Shown piece after piece: positions 5,170-26,115 of a stretch of DNA of 41,972 nucleotides (position 1 is the stretch's first letter; each line of letters starts with the position of its first letter). The position numbers and the translations under genes were made by a program. The notes below the pieces were generated by a model that was not told the origin of the DNA, did not search any database, and was given only the letters and a program-made list of their open reading frames with translations. Source of the DNA: Bacteroidetes Order II. bacterium (GTDB lineage: Bacteria > Bacteroidota > Rhodothermia > Rhodothermales > UBA2364); assembly GCA_016788705.1 (NCBI GenBank), contig JAEUSQ010000029.1, forward strand, positions 1 to 41,972, read 5' to 3'.

Positions 5170-5676
5170 TTATAAAATGACAGTTTGATGGCGTACACCT
5201 GCACCAAAAAAGAGGGACTGTTCCGTATCGCTGGGAAGTTTGACCAACTTCAGAACATTTCGTTGGTCGTCGAATACCTCCATGAGGACAATGTACTCCA
5301 GATCGAACCGGTGGATAGGCTGGCTTGCCGAGTATTCTGCCACAAAAACTGTCATGATGTCTTGCTCATACACCTCAATAATTTTTCCAGAGATTTGTTT
5401 CCCATTCTTTTTGATGATAAACTTCCAATTCAGGTATTTCTGAAAATACCTCATGGTTTCTTCATTGTATTTAAGGGCAATGGAGGGGTCTTTGTGGAAT
5501 TGTTGGAGCGCCAAGGTGATGTCATCGCTAAAGACGCGGATGCTTAGGTACGCTTTTTTGCCCTCTATTGCCATTTTTGCATAGCTTGCATGTACGTCAT
5601 GGCGTTTGGATAGCGTCAGACCAGAGGTTGACAGCAGTACCAGAGCAAGCAGCAGGATCGCAAAAAGTCTTTTCAT
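5170..5676 (-). CDS. DUF6702-like secreted protein
   Basis: This is a 168-residue protein with a clear N-terminal signal sequence (about residues 1-23, MKRLFAILLLALVLL), so it is exported. The mature part starts with a HDVHASYAKMAI segment, followed by a beta-rich region with IRVFSDDITLAL. This pattern resembles the Bacteroidota DUF6702 family, where 'H-x-[yf]-vs...e...l.i..kiF.dD' is typical and the function is unknown. It is the last gene of the minus-strand run, 46 bases after cinA. No membrane anchor or lipobox is visible, so it is likely periplasmic or peripherally bound. The family call rests on pattern resemblance only. Confidence 0.7.
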   Translation of the reverse strand: MKRLFAILLLALVLLSTSGLTLSKRHDVHASYAKMAIEGKKAYLSIRVFSDDITLALQQFHKDPSIALKYNEETMRYFQKYLNWKFIIKKNGKQISGKIIEVYEQDIMTVFVAEYSASQPIHRFDLEYIVLMEVFDDQRNVLKLVKLPSDTEQSLFFGAGVRHQTVIL

Positions 5677-5722: not shown

Positions 5723-7000
5723 CTAAGACGTTACAGAGCCATCTACATCTAATAGGTTTAACCGTTTTCGGACAAAGTCAAGCACGAGGGTAGTGGTAAA
5801 TTCCTTGTTCAAAACGCGGTCTTTAAATAGACGAAGCATTTTCGCCTCTGTTCCGTTCGCATCAGCCAGTGCAATCCAGATAGTTCCCACTGGTTTGTCA
5901 GGTGTCCCACCATCCGGGCCAGCCACACCGGAAGTCGAGATTCCGATGTCTGCTCCGGTCAGGGTCCGAATACCTTCAGCCATTTGCTTAACCACTGTTT
6001 CAGAAACGGCCCCAAAGCGCGACAAATCGGCTTCCGAAACACCGAGGAGGTTCATTTTAACGGAATTGCAATAAGCCACCACACCGCCAAGTAGATATGC
6101 AGAAGATCCGGGAATGTCCGACAAACGGTCTGCAATATGTCCACCAGTACAACTTTCGGCGGTGGCAATGGTTTTTTTTAGTTTTCGGAGGAGCTCCCCA
6201 ACCACTATTTCAGGGAGTGTATTACCCTCGCCATAGATGTAGTGGTGGGCACGCTCCCAAAGATGGGCCACCCCTTTCCCCAAGACCGCTTCTGCTTTGG
6301 CCATTGTTTCTGAACGAACAGAAAGGCGAAGTTTTACGCCTGTTTTGGGCCCTGGTAAAAAGGCCAGTGTAGCCCCTTTGCCCAAAAAAGTACGAACGTC
6401 TCCAATTTTTTCGGCCAAGTCCGATTCACCAATCCCTACGGTAAGCAACGTTTTATGAACAATCACCTCTTGTGCGTGTGCGGCCAGTCGGGGGAGGAAA
6501 GATTGTTGCATGATGGCCTTCATCTCGAATGGTACACCGGGCATCATCCCCAAGTATCTCTTTTTTCCATTTTGCTCAAATTCGTACCACAATCCGGGAG
6601 CTGTCCCCATAGAATTCGGAATTACCTCAAATCCTTGTGGGACCAAGGCTTGAACCCGGTTTAGTTCGGACGTTTTGCGGCCACGGCTTTCCAGAAGCTG
6701 GCGGATGTGTTCAAAAATCGGAGGCTGGTATTCGAGGTCTTTGCCAAAAAAAGAGGCAATTGCTTGTTTGGTCAGGTCGTCGTGGGTCGGCCCAAGGCCA
6801 CCTGTTGTGAGTACTAATTCAGCTTCCAAAAAAGCGGTACGTAGGGCGTCATGAATGTCGGCTGGTGTGTCTCCGACGGTCACCATTCTAACCACATCTA
6901 TACCAATCTGGTTCAACTCGGTGGCCATCCATGCCACGTTGGTATTATTGATCTGACCAATGAGGATTTCGTCTCCAACGGTGACCAAATGAGCCTTCAT
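5723..7000 (-). CDS. cinA: CinA: competence/damage-inducible protein with nicotinamide-nucleotide amidase domain
   Basis: This 425-residue two-domain protein has an N-terminal MoaB/Mog-like (MoCF) domain with GDEIL at 9-13 and TTGGLGPTHDD at about 65-75. In CinA proteins this domain has ADP-ribose pyrophosphatase activity. The C-terminal PncC-type domain (about 265-415) carries ATAESCTGGHIADRLSDIPG and a later STSGVAGPDGG segment. It converts nicotinamide mononucleotide to nicotinate mononucleotide in NAD salvage. The length is normal for the full-length family. The gene lies 24 bases after pyrE on the same strand, so they are probably co-transcribed; both act on phosphoribosyl nucleotides. 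Despite the name, a role in competence is not implied here. Confidence 0.95.
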   Translation of the reverse strand: MKAHLVTVGDEILIGQINNTNVAWMATELNQIGIDVVRMVTVGDTPADIHDALRTAFLEAELVLTTGGLGPTHDDLTKQAIASFFGKDLEYQPPIFEHIRQLLESRGRKTSELNRVQALVPQGFEVIPNSMGTAPGLWYEFEQNGKKRYLGMMPGVPFEMKAIMQQSFLPRLAAHAQEVIVHKTLLTVGIGESDLAEKIGDVRTFLGKGATLAFLPGPKTGVKLRLSVRSETMAKAEAVLGKGVAHLWERAHHYIYGEGNTLPEIVVGELLRKLKKTIATAESCTGGHIADRLSDIPGSSAYLLGGVVAYCNSVKMNLLGVSEADLSRFGAVSETVVKQMAEGIRTLTGADIGISTSGVAGPDGGTPDKPVGTIWIALADANGTEAKMLRLFKDRVLNKEFTTTLVLDFVRKRLNLLDVDGSVTS

Positions 7001-7024: not shown

Positions 7025-7663
7025 TTAGAGGCCAGAAGGCATCCAGTTAAATGGATCGTTTTGCCAGTCTCGGACTTCCTGTTCTTCGGAGTAGCGCAAT
7101 GTTCCCATTAGATCCGCATAATCAAGGAGGGCGTCTAAGTCGGTAAGGGTATAAACAGGAATGCCTATGGATTCAAATTTCTCCTCGGCAACGGGTAGTT
7201 GATAGGAGAAGACCGCAAAAACGGCCAATACTTCCACGCCAGCCTCCTGCAAAGCGGTTATGCACTGCAAAACAGATCCACCTGTCGAAATAAGGTCTTC
7301 TACTACGATGGCTTTTTGGCCTTTTTGGAAGACGCCTTCTATCTGATTGTTTTTACCATGTTCTTTAGCGGAAGCCCTCACATAAGCCATCGGCAACGAT
7401 AGGCGATCGGCGAGCCATGCTGCATGGGGAATGCCAGCGGTGGCTGTACCAATGATTATATCTACTTGTTCAAAGGCGCGGGCCATTTCGGCGAATGTGT
7501 CCGCAATTTGGGTACGGATTTCAGGATACCCCATTGTGAGTCGGTTATCGCAGTATAGGGGGGCTTTAATGCCGGAAGTCCATGTGTAGGGTTGATCCAT
7601 CGAGAAGGATACGGCCTTGATGTTAACCAAGGATTCGGCGAGCGATTGGCTGATATCTTGCAT
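7025..7663 (-). CDS. pyrE: Orotate phosphoribosyltransferase
   Basis: This enzyme joins orotate to PRPP to give orotidine 5'-monophosphate in de novo pyrimidine synthesis. The 212-residue product has the PRPP-binding loop KAIVVEDLISTGGS and the upstream SGIKAPLYCDNR segment typical of PyrE, plus the catalytic-loop region around ASAKEHGKNNQIEG. The start is placed at the ATG 7661-7663 (MQDISQSLAESL). The frame stays open 26 codons further to a TTG at 7741 that overlaps the preceding gene's stop, but that extension looks unlike PyrE. It lies 74 bases after the pseudokinase gene and 24 before cinA, within the minus-strand run from pgsA. Confidence 0.95.
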   Translation of the reverse strand: MQDISQSLAESLVNIKAVSFSMDQPYTWTSGIKAPLYCDNRLTMGYPEIRTQIADTFAEMARAFEQVDIIIGTATAGIPHAAWLADRLSLPMAYVRASAKEHGKNNQIEGVFQKGQKAIVVEDLISTGGSVLQCITALQEAGVEVLAVFAVFSYQLPVAEEKFESIGIPVYTLTDLDALLDYADLMGTLRYSEEQEVRDWQNDPFNWMPSGL

Positions 7664-7737: not shown

Positions 7738-9960
7738 TCAATTATTTGGCGGCTGGTTACCTTCCTTATTGCCCTTAATGCGGTCCCGTAAACGTTCTAA
7801 AACGGTTTTTTTCGGTTTGGGCTGTTCCGTTTGTGTGGGTTGTGGTGCGGGTGTTGCAGGTGAAGGAACCGGTGTGGGCGAGGCCGTTGGTTTTTGCTGA
7901 ACAGGTTTGGACTGCTGAACCGACGGTGCAACTGGTTTCGGTGTATTGCTTGTAGAAGGCTTTAGTCGCGAAGTGGTATTGGATTTTGGAGGTATTGTTG
8001 GTTTGTTGACCACGCCAGGGTTTGTGGATTTGGGGGCTGCGGGTATTACGACCGTGGCTTTTTTGGTCTTGACCAAGGAGTCGGTTAAAACGGTTGTGGT
8101 TTGGGCATCAAATTCCCTTGTTAGCGCGTCATACCCATTCAGGGTGTAGATCAAGGTGTGCGATCGGGCAGAAACCGTAAGTTGTGTGGGCGTTATCTTG
8201 CCAGTATCGGTTCCATCAAGGGTAATACTGGCACCAGTCGGAATGGAGTTCACCTGAATAGATACCTCATTTGGGAGGATTGGTGTCATATTCAGTGCGA
8301 CTTTTTGAGGGGTACTACCCTGACCTTGGGCCACTACCAAAAGCCAATTCAAGTCCTCGAATCCATCTTTAAAGGCAGAAACTTGATATTTACCAGGCGC
8401 GAGCATTAGGCTTGCAGGAGATTGGGTGCTGAATGTTTCGCCTGTTTCTACAGATCGTATATTGAGTTTTGCACCTGTAACCGGATTGGTACCTAACACC
8501 ACTTGGGTTTTATTGTTGTGATTAAGATACCACCAACCGCCTGCGGTGACACCACCAATGCCCAGCAGCAGGATCAAAAAGACCGGCCAGATGTTTTTCT
8601 TTTTCTGCGGCGGGGTAGCTACCTTCGGTACTGCATCCGGAATGGGCTTGGCTTCAACCGTATCCATCGGAAAGAGGCGTCCTCCCAAATCCTCGGATGT
8701 TAACCCTGAAGTGGACTTGCTCGCTTGCCATTCTGTAGGGGTATTGGGTGGAGCCGATGAAGGGGTATTCCACGCGCCGGATGCAGGCTTTTCCCAGTTG
8801 TTTTGGCTCGTCGGTACGGGGGGCTCGTCCCAATCGCTTGGGGGTGGTTCGGTAAAAGCCGGAATTTGGGGAGCGGTTTGAATTGGCGGTGTTATGGGTG
8901 CATCCATAGCTGGCAACGGTTGACGCCCAGTTGATTTCCAGTCTTCGCGGAATGCTGGTATAGCAGCTTGAGTGTCTGCCGTTCCAGACGGTTTGGTTTG
9001 TGGAAAAGGCAACAAAACCACTGGGCTTGAAGCACCCAGAAAGGTGGGTTTGGGTGGTATCTGACCTTGAATCACTGCCTTATAAATGGGCTGAAGAACC
9101 TTTGCAAATTCACCTACCGAGGCAAAACGGTCTTTGGGTTCGGGAGATAACAATTTTATAATCACCATTTCCAAGGCTTCCGAAATTTCCGGATTCAGCG
9201 AACGCGGCGGTGTGAGGTTATCTACTGGAATCCGTTCGGAGGCGGGAGCAGGTTGCTGGCCTGTTAGGGCGGTATAGAGGATCCCGCCAAAACTATATAA
9301 ATCCGTCCATGGTCCTTGTTCCATTCCTTTATGAAAAAGCTCTGGCGCATCATATCCAGTAGAAGCATAGGGGTGCGGCAAAACCGGATCATACAGTCCA
9401 TCGTTCACAAGGATCATTTTTCCGGCAGCGGGCATATAAATTTGTTCCGGCTTAATGCCTTTATGGACCACTTTTCGGTCGTGTATGGCTTTTAGACCTG
9501 TAAGGGCCAGTAGGGCATTTTCTAGCGCCATGCGTTCCGCAAGACGCCCACCATGCTTCATGATTAAGTCGGAAAGCGTGCGCCCTTCGTAGTAAGCACT
9601 CACGACATAGGCCGTCGAGTTGGAGGCAAAAGTTTCTTGAATTTTTGCAACACTGGGGTGGTTTACTTGTTGTAAGGCGTCTCCTTCCCGAAGCATCATT
9701 TCGATCCCGCCCGAAAGGTCAAACACCGCTTGGGTAGTCATAGGTCTGACTTCGGTTTCTCCTAAGTTTCTGGAGACGAGGTGTTTGGGGAATAATTCCT
9801 GAACCACCACCAACCGATCATTGGGGTCTTTTGCGAGGTAGGTAAATCCATTGCCACTCTGCCGAAGTACCCGACCTACTGTATATTCGCCATTTAGGGT
9901 AGTATTGAGGGGGAGCGCCTGATCGCTTCGTGGGGTAACGTCTTCAAATAGACTGTCCAT
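7738..9960 (-). CDS. Membrane-anchored pseudokinase with C-terminal PEGA domains
   Basis: In this 740-residue protein the N-terminal part (about 24-290) follows the Hanks-type Ser/Thr kinase fold: a glycine-loop-like SGNGFTYLA, the alpha-C glutamate in MLREGDAL (about E92), and an intact APE (205-207) followed by WTDLYSFGGILY. The three catalytic signatures are altered. The VAIK lysine is Gln54 (LVVVQELFP), HRD is HKG (166-168, IKPEQI following), and DFG is NDG (186-188). A Pro-rich linker follows (about 300-450), then one membrane helix (about 456-474), beta-rich PEGA-type repeats (about 480-635) outside the cell membrane, and a Pro/Thr-rich tail. Loss of phosphotransfer is inferred, with a likely scaffold or sensor role. 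The ATG at 9960 is preferred; the frame extends to 10104, but the extra 48 residues look unlike a kinase N-terminus. It lies between pgsA and pyrE. Confidence 0.88.
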   Translation of the reverse strand: MDSLFEDVTPRSDQALPLNTTLNGEYTVGRVLRQSGNGFTYLAKDPNDRLVVVQELFPKHLVSRNLGETEVRPMTTQAVFDLSGGIEMMLREGDALQQVNHPSVAKIQETFASNSTAYVVSAYYEGRTLSDLIMKHGGRLAERMALENALLALTGLKAIHDRKVVHKGIKPEQIYMPAAGKMILVNDGLYDPVLPHPYASTGYDAPELFHKGMEQGPWTDLYSFGGILYTALTGQQPAPASERIPVDNLTPPRSLNPEISEALEMVIIKLLSPEPKDRFASVGEFAKVLQPIYKAVIQGQIPPKPTFLGASSPVVLLPFPQTKPSGTADTQAAIPAFREDWKSTGRQPLPAMDAPITPPIQTAPQIPAFTEPPPSDWDEPPVPTSQNNWEKPASGAWNTPSSAPPNTPTEWQASKSTSGLTSEDLGGRLFPMDTVEAKPIPDAVPKVATPPQKKKNIWPVFLILLLGIGGVTAGGWWYLNHNNKTQVVLGTNPVTGAKLNIRSVETGETFSTQSPASLMLAPGKYQVSAFKDGFEDLNWLLVVAQGQGSTPQKVALNMTPILPNEVSIQVNSIPTGASITLDGTDTGKITPTQLTVSARSHTLIYTLNGYDALTREFDAQTTTVLTDSLVKTKKATVVIPAAPKSTNPGVVNKPTIPPKSNTTSRLKPSTSNTPKPVAPSVQQSKPVQQKPTASPTPVPSPATPAPQPTQTEQPKPKKTVLERLRDRIKGNKEGNQPPNN

Positions 9961-10111
9961 GGCTAAAGGAACGATATGGTGGAAAGAAATAATGACATGC
10001 AGGAAACCAGCATTGCGAAGGTTTCGGAATATACGGCAACGTGGCACATGAATCCATCCCGCCGATATAAATCTTAAACGTAAAGAACACGAAAAAGTCT
10101 CCAAAGAGCTA

Positions 10112-10702
10112 TTAGGGCGATGATTCTTGCGAGGGTAAAGGATTTAGGGCATATTGGGCATACTGAAGCCCCGTAACGACGGTGGAAAGGAGGGTGACCC
10201 ACATCAAAAGCGACATCGGCCACTGGGTAAGTAGGTATTTACTGATGCCTGCAATGGGAGGAATATGGGTACAAATCAACCAAACCAGCACCCATCCCAG
10301 ATAAACAAATTGAAGGGTGGTTTTTACTTTTGCGCTATATAATGTGGGAATGGAGGTGCTTTGGGCCTCAGCCCAAGAACGGAGTGCCGTAACAGAGAGG
10401 TCACGAATACCAATCACGATCACAAACCACCAAGGAATCTCTGGAACTAAAAAAGGCAGTACCAGAAAGGTGCCAAGAACAAATATTTTATCCGCCAACG
10501 GGTCTAAAAACTGACCAAAACGCGATTTCGCCTTCCATTGACGTGCCAATTTGCCGTCCCAGTAATCTGATAATCCTGCAATAATAAACACCATACCGCC
10601 CAAAAGTCTTTTTTCCAACGTCGGGGTGAGGATCAGCCAAATAAAAACGGGCGTCAGCACAATCCGGCTGAGGCTTAAAAAATTAGGAAGTTTTTTGGTC
10701 AC
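10112..10702 (-). CDS. pgsA: CDP-diacylglycerol-glycerol-3-phosphate 3-phosphatidyltransferase
   Basis: This enzyme makes phosphatidylglycerophosphate, the first committed step to phosphatidylglycerol, in the inner membrane. The 196-residue product has the CDP-alcohol phosphotransferase motif D-x2-DG-x2-AR-x8-G-x3-D-x3-D with D46, D49, G50, A53, R54, G63, D67 and D71 all present. Several hydrophobic helices follow, as the family requires. The start codon is GTG at 10700-10702; the next in-frame Met would remove the first membrane helix. It heads the minus-strand run pgsA, pseudokinase, pyrE, cinA and DUF6702, and is divergent from dnaK. Phosphatidylserine synthase is a less likely alternative given length and motif spacing. 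Confidence 0.93.
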   Translation of the reverse strand: MTKKLPNFLSLSRIVLTPVFIWLILTPTLEKRLLGGMVFIIAGLSDYWDGKLARQWKAKSRFGQFLDPLADKIFVLGTFLVLPFLVPEIPWWFVIVIGIRDLSVTALRSWAEAQSTSIPTLYSAKVKTTLQFVYLGWVLVWLICTHIPPIAGISKYLLTQWPMSLLMWVTLLSTVVTGLQYAQYALNPLPSQESSP

Positions 10703-25497: not shown

Positions 25498-26115
25498 TTA
25501 GCGACGGAGTACAGCCCGCAAAAACCGCCCAATTTCACCACCCCGGATGTCTTGCGTCCCGTCTGTAAATACTTCGATCAGGTACGCCAAGTGGGCATCC
25601 TCGTCTAAAGTTGCTGCATATTCGTTAATGGCGTTTAATAAATCTCGAAGTTGCTTACCATGTAATGTAGCAGGGGAGGCAGGGTCTTGCTCTTGGATCC
25701 AGTGGGCAACTGTTTGATGGAGTGGTGCTTCGGATGCGGTATTGATCGCTTGATAGGTCCCCAAAGAATCGCCGGAAGGGGTCATGAGCATTGGCTTAGA
25801 CAGCACAGGAGATGTTTTTTGGAGGAAAATAGGCTCTATCAGAATGCGTCCCAAAACGATAGCCGATTGCGGGTTTAGGGGGTATGGGAGATGGGGTGTC
25901 AGACGTTTTCCATCCAACCAAGTACCGTTATGGCTCCCCAAGTCCATAATATGCCAGAGTTCGTTTTCTAAATAGATGCGGGCATGTTTACGGCTGAGCA
26001 GGCATCCAGGGTCATCAAGCTGGATTTCGCATTGTGCCGATCGGCCCAGCGTAACCACTTCTTTTTGTATTTGAACCTCTTGAAGAAGGCCATTCAGCGT
26101 ATATTTCAGTAACAT
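25498..26115 (-). CDS. FHA-domain protein
   Basis: This 205-residue cytoplasmic protein has an N-terminal forkhead-associated domain (about 5-90) showing GRS (24-26), SRKHARI (41-47) and GSHNGTWLDGKRL (60-72). These are the conserved phosphothreonine-binding residues. The rest (about 100-205) is mainly helical and not recognised; it may be an effector or oligomerisation part. FHA domains read phosphorylation by Ser/Thr kinases. The window's only kinase-like gene (7.7-10 kb) appears inactive, so an active partner must be elsewhere. The stop is one base from that of the DUF547 gene, with no terminator between them. Confidence 0.88.
   Translation of the reverse strand: MLLKYTLNGLLQEVQIQKEVVTLGRSAQCEIQLDDPGCLLSRKHARIYLENELWHIMDLGSHNGTWLDGKRLTPHLPYPLNPQSAIVLGRILIEPIFLQKTSPVLSKPMLMTPSGDSLGTYQAINTASEAPLHQTVAHWIQEQDPASPATLHGKQLRDLLNAINEYAATLDEDAHLAYLIEVFTDGTQDIRGGEIGRFLRAVLRR

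Follow-up and report, generated by a model that had tools for sequence, protein, structure and literature searches.

A gene on the 41,972-nucleotide stretch of DNA analysed here (the window) encodes a recognisable protein kinase fold in which the residues needed for catalysis have been replaced, and it sits between two housekeeping genes, pgsA and pyrE. This raises two questions: is the product really a dead kinase rather than a damaged gene, and if so, what is it for? Our best explanation for the whole, which we consider probable, is that the gene encodes an envelope-facing single-pass receptor whose non-catalytic head acts via protein contacts, i.e., as an adaptor.

Gene and protein architecture

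The open reading frame lies on the minus strand, with an ATG at 9960 and a stop codon at 7738-7740. Comparison of the species shows frame-shifting indels ahead of the ATG, and a TTG 144 bp upstream (at 10104) was therefore rejected as the start. A kinase-fold head forms the N-terminal part of the protein; a Pro-rich linker leads from it to a single membrane helix, which is followed by two PEGA-type repeats and, at the C terminus, a Pro/Lys-rich tail:

7738..9960 (-): whole gene of the PEGA-receptor pseudokinase (740 aa, starting with ATG)
9076..9960 (-): head with the pseudokinase fold (residues 1-295)
8605..9075 (-): linker rich in Pro (residues 296-452), without a Pfam match
8518..8604 (-): region of the membrane helix (residues about 453-481, with the core at 457-475), KKK ahead of it
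8280..8520 (-): PEGA-like repeat 1 (residues about 481-560), Pfam score below the threshold
8065..8280 (-): PEGA repeat 2 (residues about 561-632), Pfam match
7741..8064 (-): Pro/Lys-rich tail with a conserved C-terminal KPKKTVLERLRDRIKGN helix

The whole protein matches the Pfam families Pkinase (71.2 bits, cut-off 31.7) and PEGA (PF08308, 47.5 bits, above the curated cut-off), and a Pfam scan found no other domain, including no TonB_C and no TPR. Taken alone, the first repeat scores 19.8 bits against a cut-off of 20.8 (E 7e-4); it has beta structure in a low-confidence model, and the ectodomain model as a whole (mean pLDDT 47) was too poor for a structure search. The linker contains short conserved motifs, e.g., LTSEDLGGRLFP and DTQAAxPAFREDWK. 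One transmembrane segment is predicted (residues about 457-475); a KKK stretch flanks it N-terminally. Positive charges are taken to lie inside, so the head is predicted to be cytoplasmic and the PEGA repeats periplasmic. This is the receptor-like topology that the sequence-only reading had proposed, and prediction of one membrane helix plus PEGA bears it out.

Fold and catalytic residues of the head

The head is a Hanks-type fold, as judged by its Pkinase profile match and bilobal structure. An AlphaFold2 model of residues 1-300, built from an alignment of 21 sequences, has a kinase fold with a mean pLDDT of 82 and superimposes well on PknA (Z 27.6, rmsd 2.6 over 256 residues) and PpkA (Z 26.3).

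Alignment to active relatives places Gln54 in the column of the VAIK Lys, H166-K167-G168 (HKG) in that of HRD and N186-D187-G188 (NDG) in that of DFG, just as the sequence-only reading had claimed. The catalytic-loop Asn is also lost (Gln173), which goes beyond those three motifs. The alpha-C Glu (Glu92) and APE (A205-P206-E207), both correctly reported as retained, are accompanied by Lys170 and the alpha-F Asp220. The stretch from DFG to APE has 23 residues, six short of the 29 found in nearly all relatives, active or not (the remainder have 28-32).

Three genomes of the genus carry the gene: the source genome (G000), G001 and G002. Every catalytic-site change is identical in these separately assembled species, so a sequencing error at the motif codons, which had been raised as a possible explanation, is excluded. 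With Gln54, Gly168 and Asn186 in all three orthologues, the protein does not have the residues of an active Ser/Thr kinase, and we infer that the head lacks catalytic activity.

Descent and a second group of pseudokinases

Among solved structures, the best phmmer match is PpkA (5hnv, E 6.7e-18, residues 10-290). Within the order, the nearest active relatives are 31-36% identical; they carry the motif K-E-(F/Y)-x-P and, together with PpkA, are the closest relatives by sequence. An N-terminal MDxxFxxxxxRxxxALP is common to the pseudokinase and these active kinases. Judged from its residues, the protein is a kinase fold of PpkA-like descent and not an active kinase. The source genome has 16 further Pkinase matches (15 above cut-off), and all of those aligned keep every motif. 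One of them, the C53 paralogue (L054:8112-10877), is an active PpkA-like kinase with a long right-handed beta-helix (NosD-like) after its membrane helix.

The order also holds a second kind of pseudokinase. In at least 19 genomes from three other families (f6, f8 and f13), a pseudokinase head is followed by a membrane helix, TPR and TonB_C. In place of HRD they have HGG, HAG, HGR or the like, and most have lost the Asp or Gly of DFG, though two members retain both the Lys and the DFG Asp. Eight members were scanned for domains:

L041:7577-10414, TonB_C pseudokinase
L042:6854-9451, TonB_C pseudokinase
L046:9229-12057, TonB_C pseudokinase
L206:7058-9490, TonB_C pseudokinase
L210:3966-6638, TonB_C pseudokinase
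L211:4855-7527, TonB_C pseudokinase
L213:1952-4855, TonB_C pseudokinase
L048:2234-4465, TonB_C pseudokinase, no detectable TPR

TonB_C was found behind the membrane helix in all eight and TPR in seven. In many genomes, the gene adjoins Lnb (DUF4105), an HhH-GPD endonuclease, gpmI and sppA, a conserved place that it occupies in L042, L206, L209, L211, L212 and L217. At L046, it is preceded by a gene for a TonB-dependent-receptor-like protein. The source genome has the Lnb-nth-gpmI block, followed by ddl, and no TonB_C pseudokinase at that locus. Two family f8 genomes each have at least three divergent pseudokinase paralogues (G030: L044, L046, L049; G009: L045, L047, L050). The fusion of a pseudokinase via a membrane helix to TPR and TonB_C is apparently an undescribed architecture: the open-licence literature yielded no paper joining TonB and pseudokinase, and none relevantly joining PEGA and pseudokinase.

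Could the PEGA protein and the TPR-TonB_C proteins be sister branches of one pseudokinase lineage that runs through the order, doing the same envelope-spanning job with different ectodomains? A maximum-likelihood tree contains a branch with all the pseudokinases to one side of it (support 97/94), and the split persists (96/92) when the glycine loop, VAIK, catalytic loop and activation segment are removed. Both kinds are predicted to be single-pass with a periplasmic interaction region, and VVV(x)E and HxG are common to many members. However, the PEGA pseudokinase scores higher against a profile of active kinases (224 bits) than against one of TonB_C pseudokinases (184 bits), the shared MDxxFxxxxxRxxxALP is missing in the TonB_C group, and the short activation segment is private to the PEGA protein. 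It also sits on a long branch, AU tests do not reject its grouping with several active kinases (p 0.15-0.17; 0.047 with the C53 paralogue), and an earlier tree with fewer relatives gave it no clear placement. We regard common descent with the TonB_C group as a real possibility but, on balance, a doubtful one.

The question of whether the nearest neighbours have intact catalytic residues, which the sequence-only reading had posed, is thus answered differently by the two methods: by profile, active PpkA-like kinases are the nearest outgroup, while the best tree puts the protein beside the other pseudokinase group. An active outgroup would not restore activity in any case, because all three orthologues are degenerate at all three motifs.

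A broader scenario is that a single conversion of a PpkA-like kinase in Rhodothermales-like bacteria gave rise to the non-catalytic heads of a lasting class of envelope-spanning transducers, most of which end in TPR and TonB_C, and that this genus re-equipped the head with PEGA. We offer this only tentatively and think it rather unlikely. If true, a pseudokinase would form the cytoplasmic end of a trans-envelope module for signalling or energy transduction.

Selection and conservation

The head has a dN/dS of 0.039 between the two nearest species, compared with 0.068 for pgsA, 0.080 for pyrE and 0.082 for cinA (against the third species, dS of the head is saturated). Identical changes in three species and strong purifying selection on the head together mean that the loss is neither error nor decay, and the earlier claim that it is maintained by selection holds.

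Across the three species, invariant positions make up 94% of the C-lobe, 80% of the N-lobe, 64% of the linker, 81% and 76% of the two PEGA repeats and 60% of the tail. Residues 142-237, which span the dead active site, are invariant at 94 of 96 positions (98%). The corresponding figures for active paralogues are 89-95% (residues 142-237) and 90-94% (N-lobe). Conservation of the dead active-site region is therefore as strict as that of a live one, and the N-lobe is somewhat freer. A strict dead site combined with a freer ATP-binding lobe suggests that the C-lobe carries a contact surface, and a ligand or contact may be confined to that lobe.

Such conservation could also mean that the head is an unusual enzyme rather than an adaptor, i.e., that it binds nucleotide or runs a different reaction, as SelO or SidJ does; these are precedents with altered kinase folds (PMC12599244). 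Nucleotide binding or unusual catalysis is conceivable because Glu92, Lys170 and Asp220 are kept, the pocket region is strictly conserved and the replacements at the lost sites are polar (K to Q, N to Q, D to N), with Gln173 and Asn186 being conservative. But all orthologues have lost both metal-binding positions and the catalytic base, and their activation segment is short, whereas SelO and SidJ retain an ATP-binding Lys and a metal Asp (PMC12599244). We consider an unusual enzyme unlikely.

Locus and distribution

The neighbouring genes are as follows:

10112..10702 (-): pgsA, CDP-alcohol phosphatidyltransferase (Pfam and conserved order)
9961..10111 (-): gap between pgsA and the pseudokinase gene, 151 bp
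7025..7663 (-): pyrE, orotate phosphoribosyltransferase (named from the earlier reading and sequence; conserved order)
5723..7000 (-): cinA (named from the earlier reading and sequence; conserved order)
5170-5676: DUF6702 gene, directly after cinA, present in all three species of the genus

G000, G001 and G002 all have the order pgsA-pseudokinase-pyrE-cinA-DUF6702 beside a divergent dnaK. G001 is Bacteroidetes bacterium UBA2364, which NCBI places in 'Bacteroidota Order II'; we take this to be the Rhodothermales group. No orthologue was found elsewhere in 114 genomes of the order, 244 of the class and 394 sampled from the phylum, and the next matches outside the genus are active kinases of ~35% identity. 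The gene is specific to one genus of uncultured Rhodothermales-like Bacteroidota.

For the rest of the order, we used the 49 other genomes with pgsA and pyrE on one contig and strand. All but one (G013, where the two genes are far apart) have pgsA directly before pyrE, with 13-201 bp between them, and a search for order-wide orthologues at this locus found none. At most inspected loci of the order, dnaK is divergent upstream and cinA follows pyrE. Since only this genus has a kinase between pgsA and pyrE, we conclude that the gene entered a housekeeping block that was already in place. The pgsA-pseudokinase-pyrE order, which the sequence-only reading had suggested checking for conservation, is kept within the genus and absent outside it.

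Because the neighbourhood is an inherited housekeeping block, position alone is weak evidence for a partner, and this bears on the suggestion that the pseudokinase regulates its neighbour PgsA and thereby phospholipid synthesis. The two genes are adjacent and co-oriented in all three species, but that suggestion comes from position alone. Elsewhere in the order, the pgsA-pyrE-cinA run exists without the kinase; neither pyrE nor cinA has a lipid link, and the 151-bp gap may hold a promoter for the pseudokinase gene itself, so we think regulation of PgsA very improbable. One stretch of this gap is strongly conserved in the three species and is a possible promoter or RNA element. A sigma-70 promoter scan gave matches no more numerous than in shuffled sequence and was thus uninformative.

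The window also encodes an FHA-domain protein at 25498-26115 (65.9 bits). The domain is real, but the proposed tie between this protein (at 25.5 kb) and the pseudokinase gained no support: we found nothing that connects the two genes. No type VI secretion gene was seen among the pseudokinase neighbours examined.

Proposed function

A decaying pseudogene or assembly artefact, for which the catalytic-residue loss and nothing else speaks, can be rejected as practically inconceivable, being contradicted by the open frame and identical motifs in three species and by the head's low dN/dS.

Selection maintains, on a membrane receptor, a head that is not expected to transfer phosphate, and the best reading of such a head is an adaptor or an allosteric partner. 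The gene product would be a single-pass inner-membrane receptor, with its periplasmic PEGA repeats and Pro/Lys-rich tail contacting the envelope. Its cytoplasmic head would transfer no phosphate and would instead bind another protein. The most plausible partner would be one of the active PpkA-like kinases of the same genome, or their targets; the further Pkinase matches offer candidates, but they name none. As for origin, the gene would derive from an active PpkA-like kinase; the ancestor of the genus acquired it between pgsA and pyrE, and strong selection has preserved it since. Non-catalytic bacterial pseudokinases have precedents in the EssB/YukC scaffold and in MviN-FhaA (PMC12599244).

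Comparison with known systems

PpkA (PDB 5hnv, 5x1r) is the best sequence match among solved structures and is also similar in structure (Z 26). Its beta-3 motif K-E-(F/Y)-x-P persists as Q-E-L-F-P in the pseudokinase. However, PpkA is active and belongs to type VI secretion, whereas the pseudokinase is without catalytic residues and has a PEGA ectodomain.

PASTA-type receptor kinases (PknB/Stk1) share the layout of a cytoplasmic kinase fold, one membrane helix and a repeat ectodomain, but they are active and carry PASTA rather than PEGA. The NCBIfam PknB model matches the pseudokinase at 83 bits, far under its cut-off of 450.

Three systems resemble it as membrane proteins with non-catalytic kinase folds. 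In MviN (MurJ)-FhaA of Mycobacterium (ActPs3), a membrane protein uses a non-catalytic cytoplasmic kinase fold for recruitment (PMC12599244). MviN, however, is a lipid flippase with a C-terminal pseudokinase, while here the head is N-terminal and joined to a single membrane helix and PEGA, and any phosphosite or FHA reader would be hypothetical. EssB/YukC is a single-pass membrane pseudokinase with a scaffold function (PMC12599244), but it is a component of Gram-positive type VII secretion, and no such neighbours were seen at our locus. The TPR-TonB_C pseudokinases have a degenerate PpkA-like head, a single membrane helix and a periplasmic interaction region; they differ in their TPR and TonB_C ectodomain, Lnb-nth-gpmI locus, normal activation-segment length and N-terminus.

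Nor does the protein have the defining features of two catalogued classes, CP1 and ActPs3. CP1 pseudokinases have no transmembrane segment and are fused to a COG3899 ATPase (PMC12599244), whereas ours has one such segment and no Pfam domain besides Pkinase and PEGA. ActPs3 proteins are actinobacterial, with the pseudokinase fused to a MurJ/MviN flippase (PMC12599244); ours comes from Bacteroidota and has no MurJ/MviN domain. For some of the families ActPs1, ActPs2, GLW, DLHK and DYD, the described taxa and motifs differ from ours (PMC12599244).

Most catalogued bacterial pseudokinases come from Actinobacteria, Firmicutes, Cyanobacteria and Proteobacteria, and very few have a known function (PMC12599244). 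What is new here is a receptor pseudokinase with a PEGA ectodomain, from a phylum not named in that review: a receptor-type example from Bacteroidota in which all catalytic positions have changed and which is nevertheless strongly conserved. The genus keeps about 15 other Pkinase-family proteins, so it can be tested directly whether an active kinase depends on a dead one.
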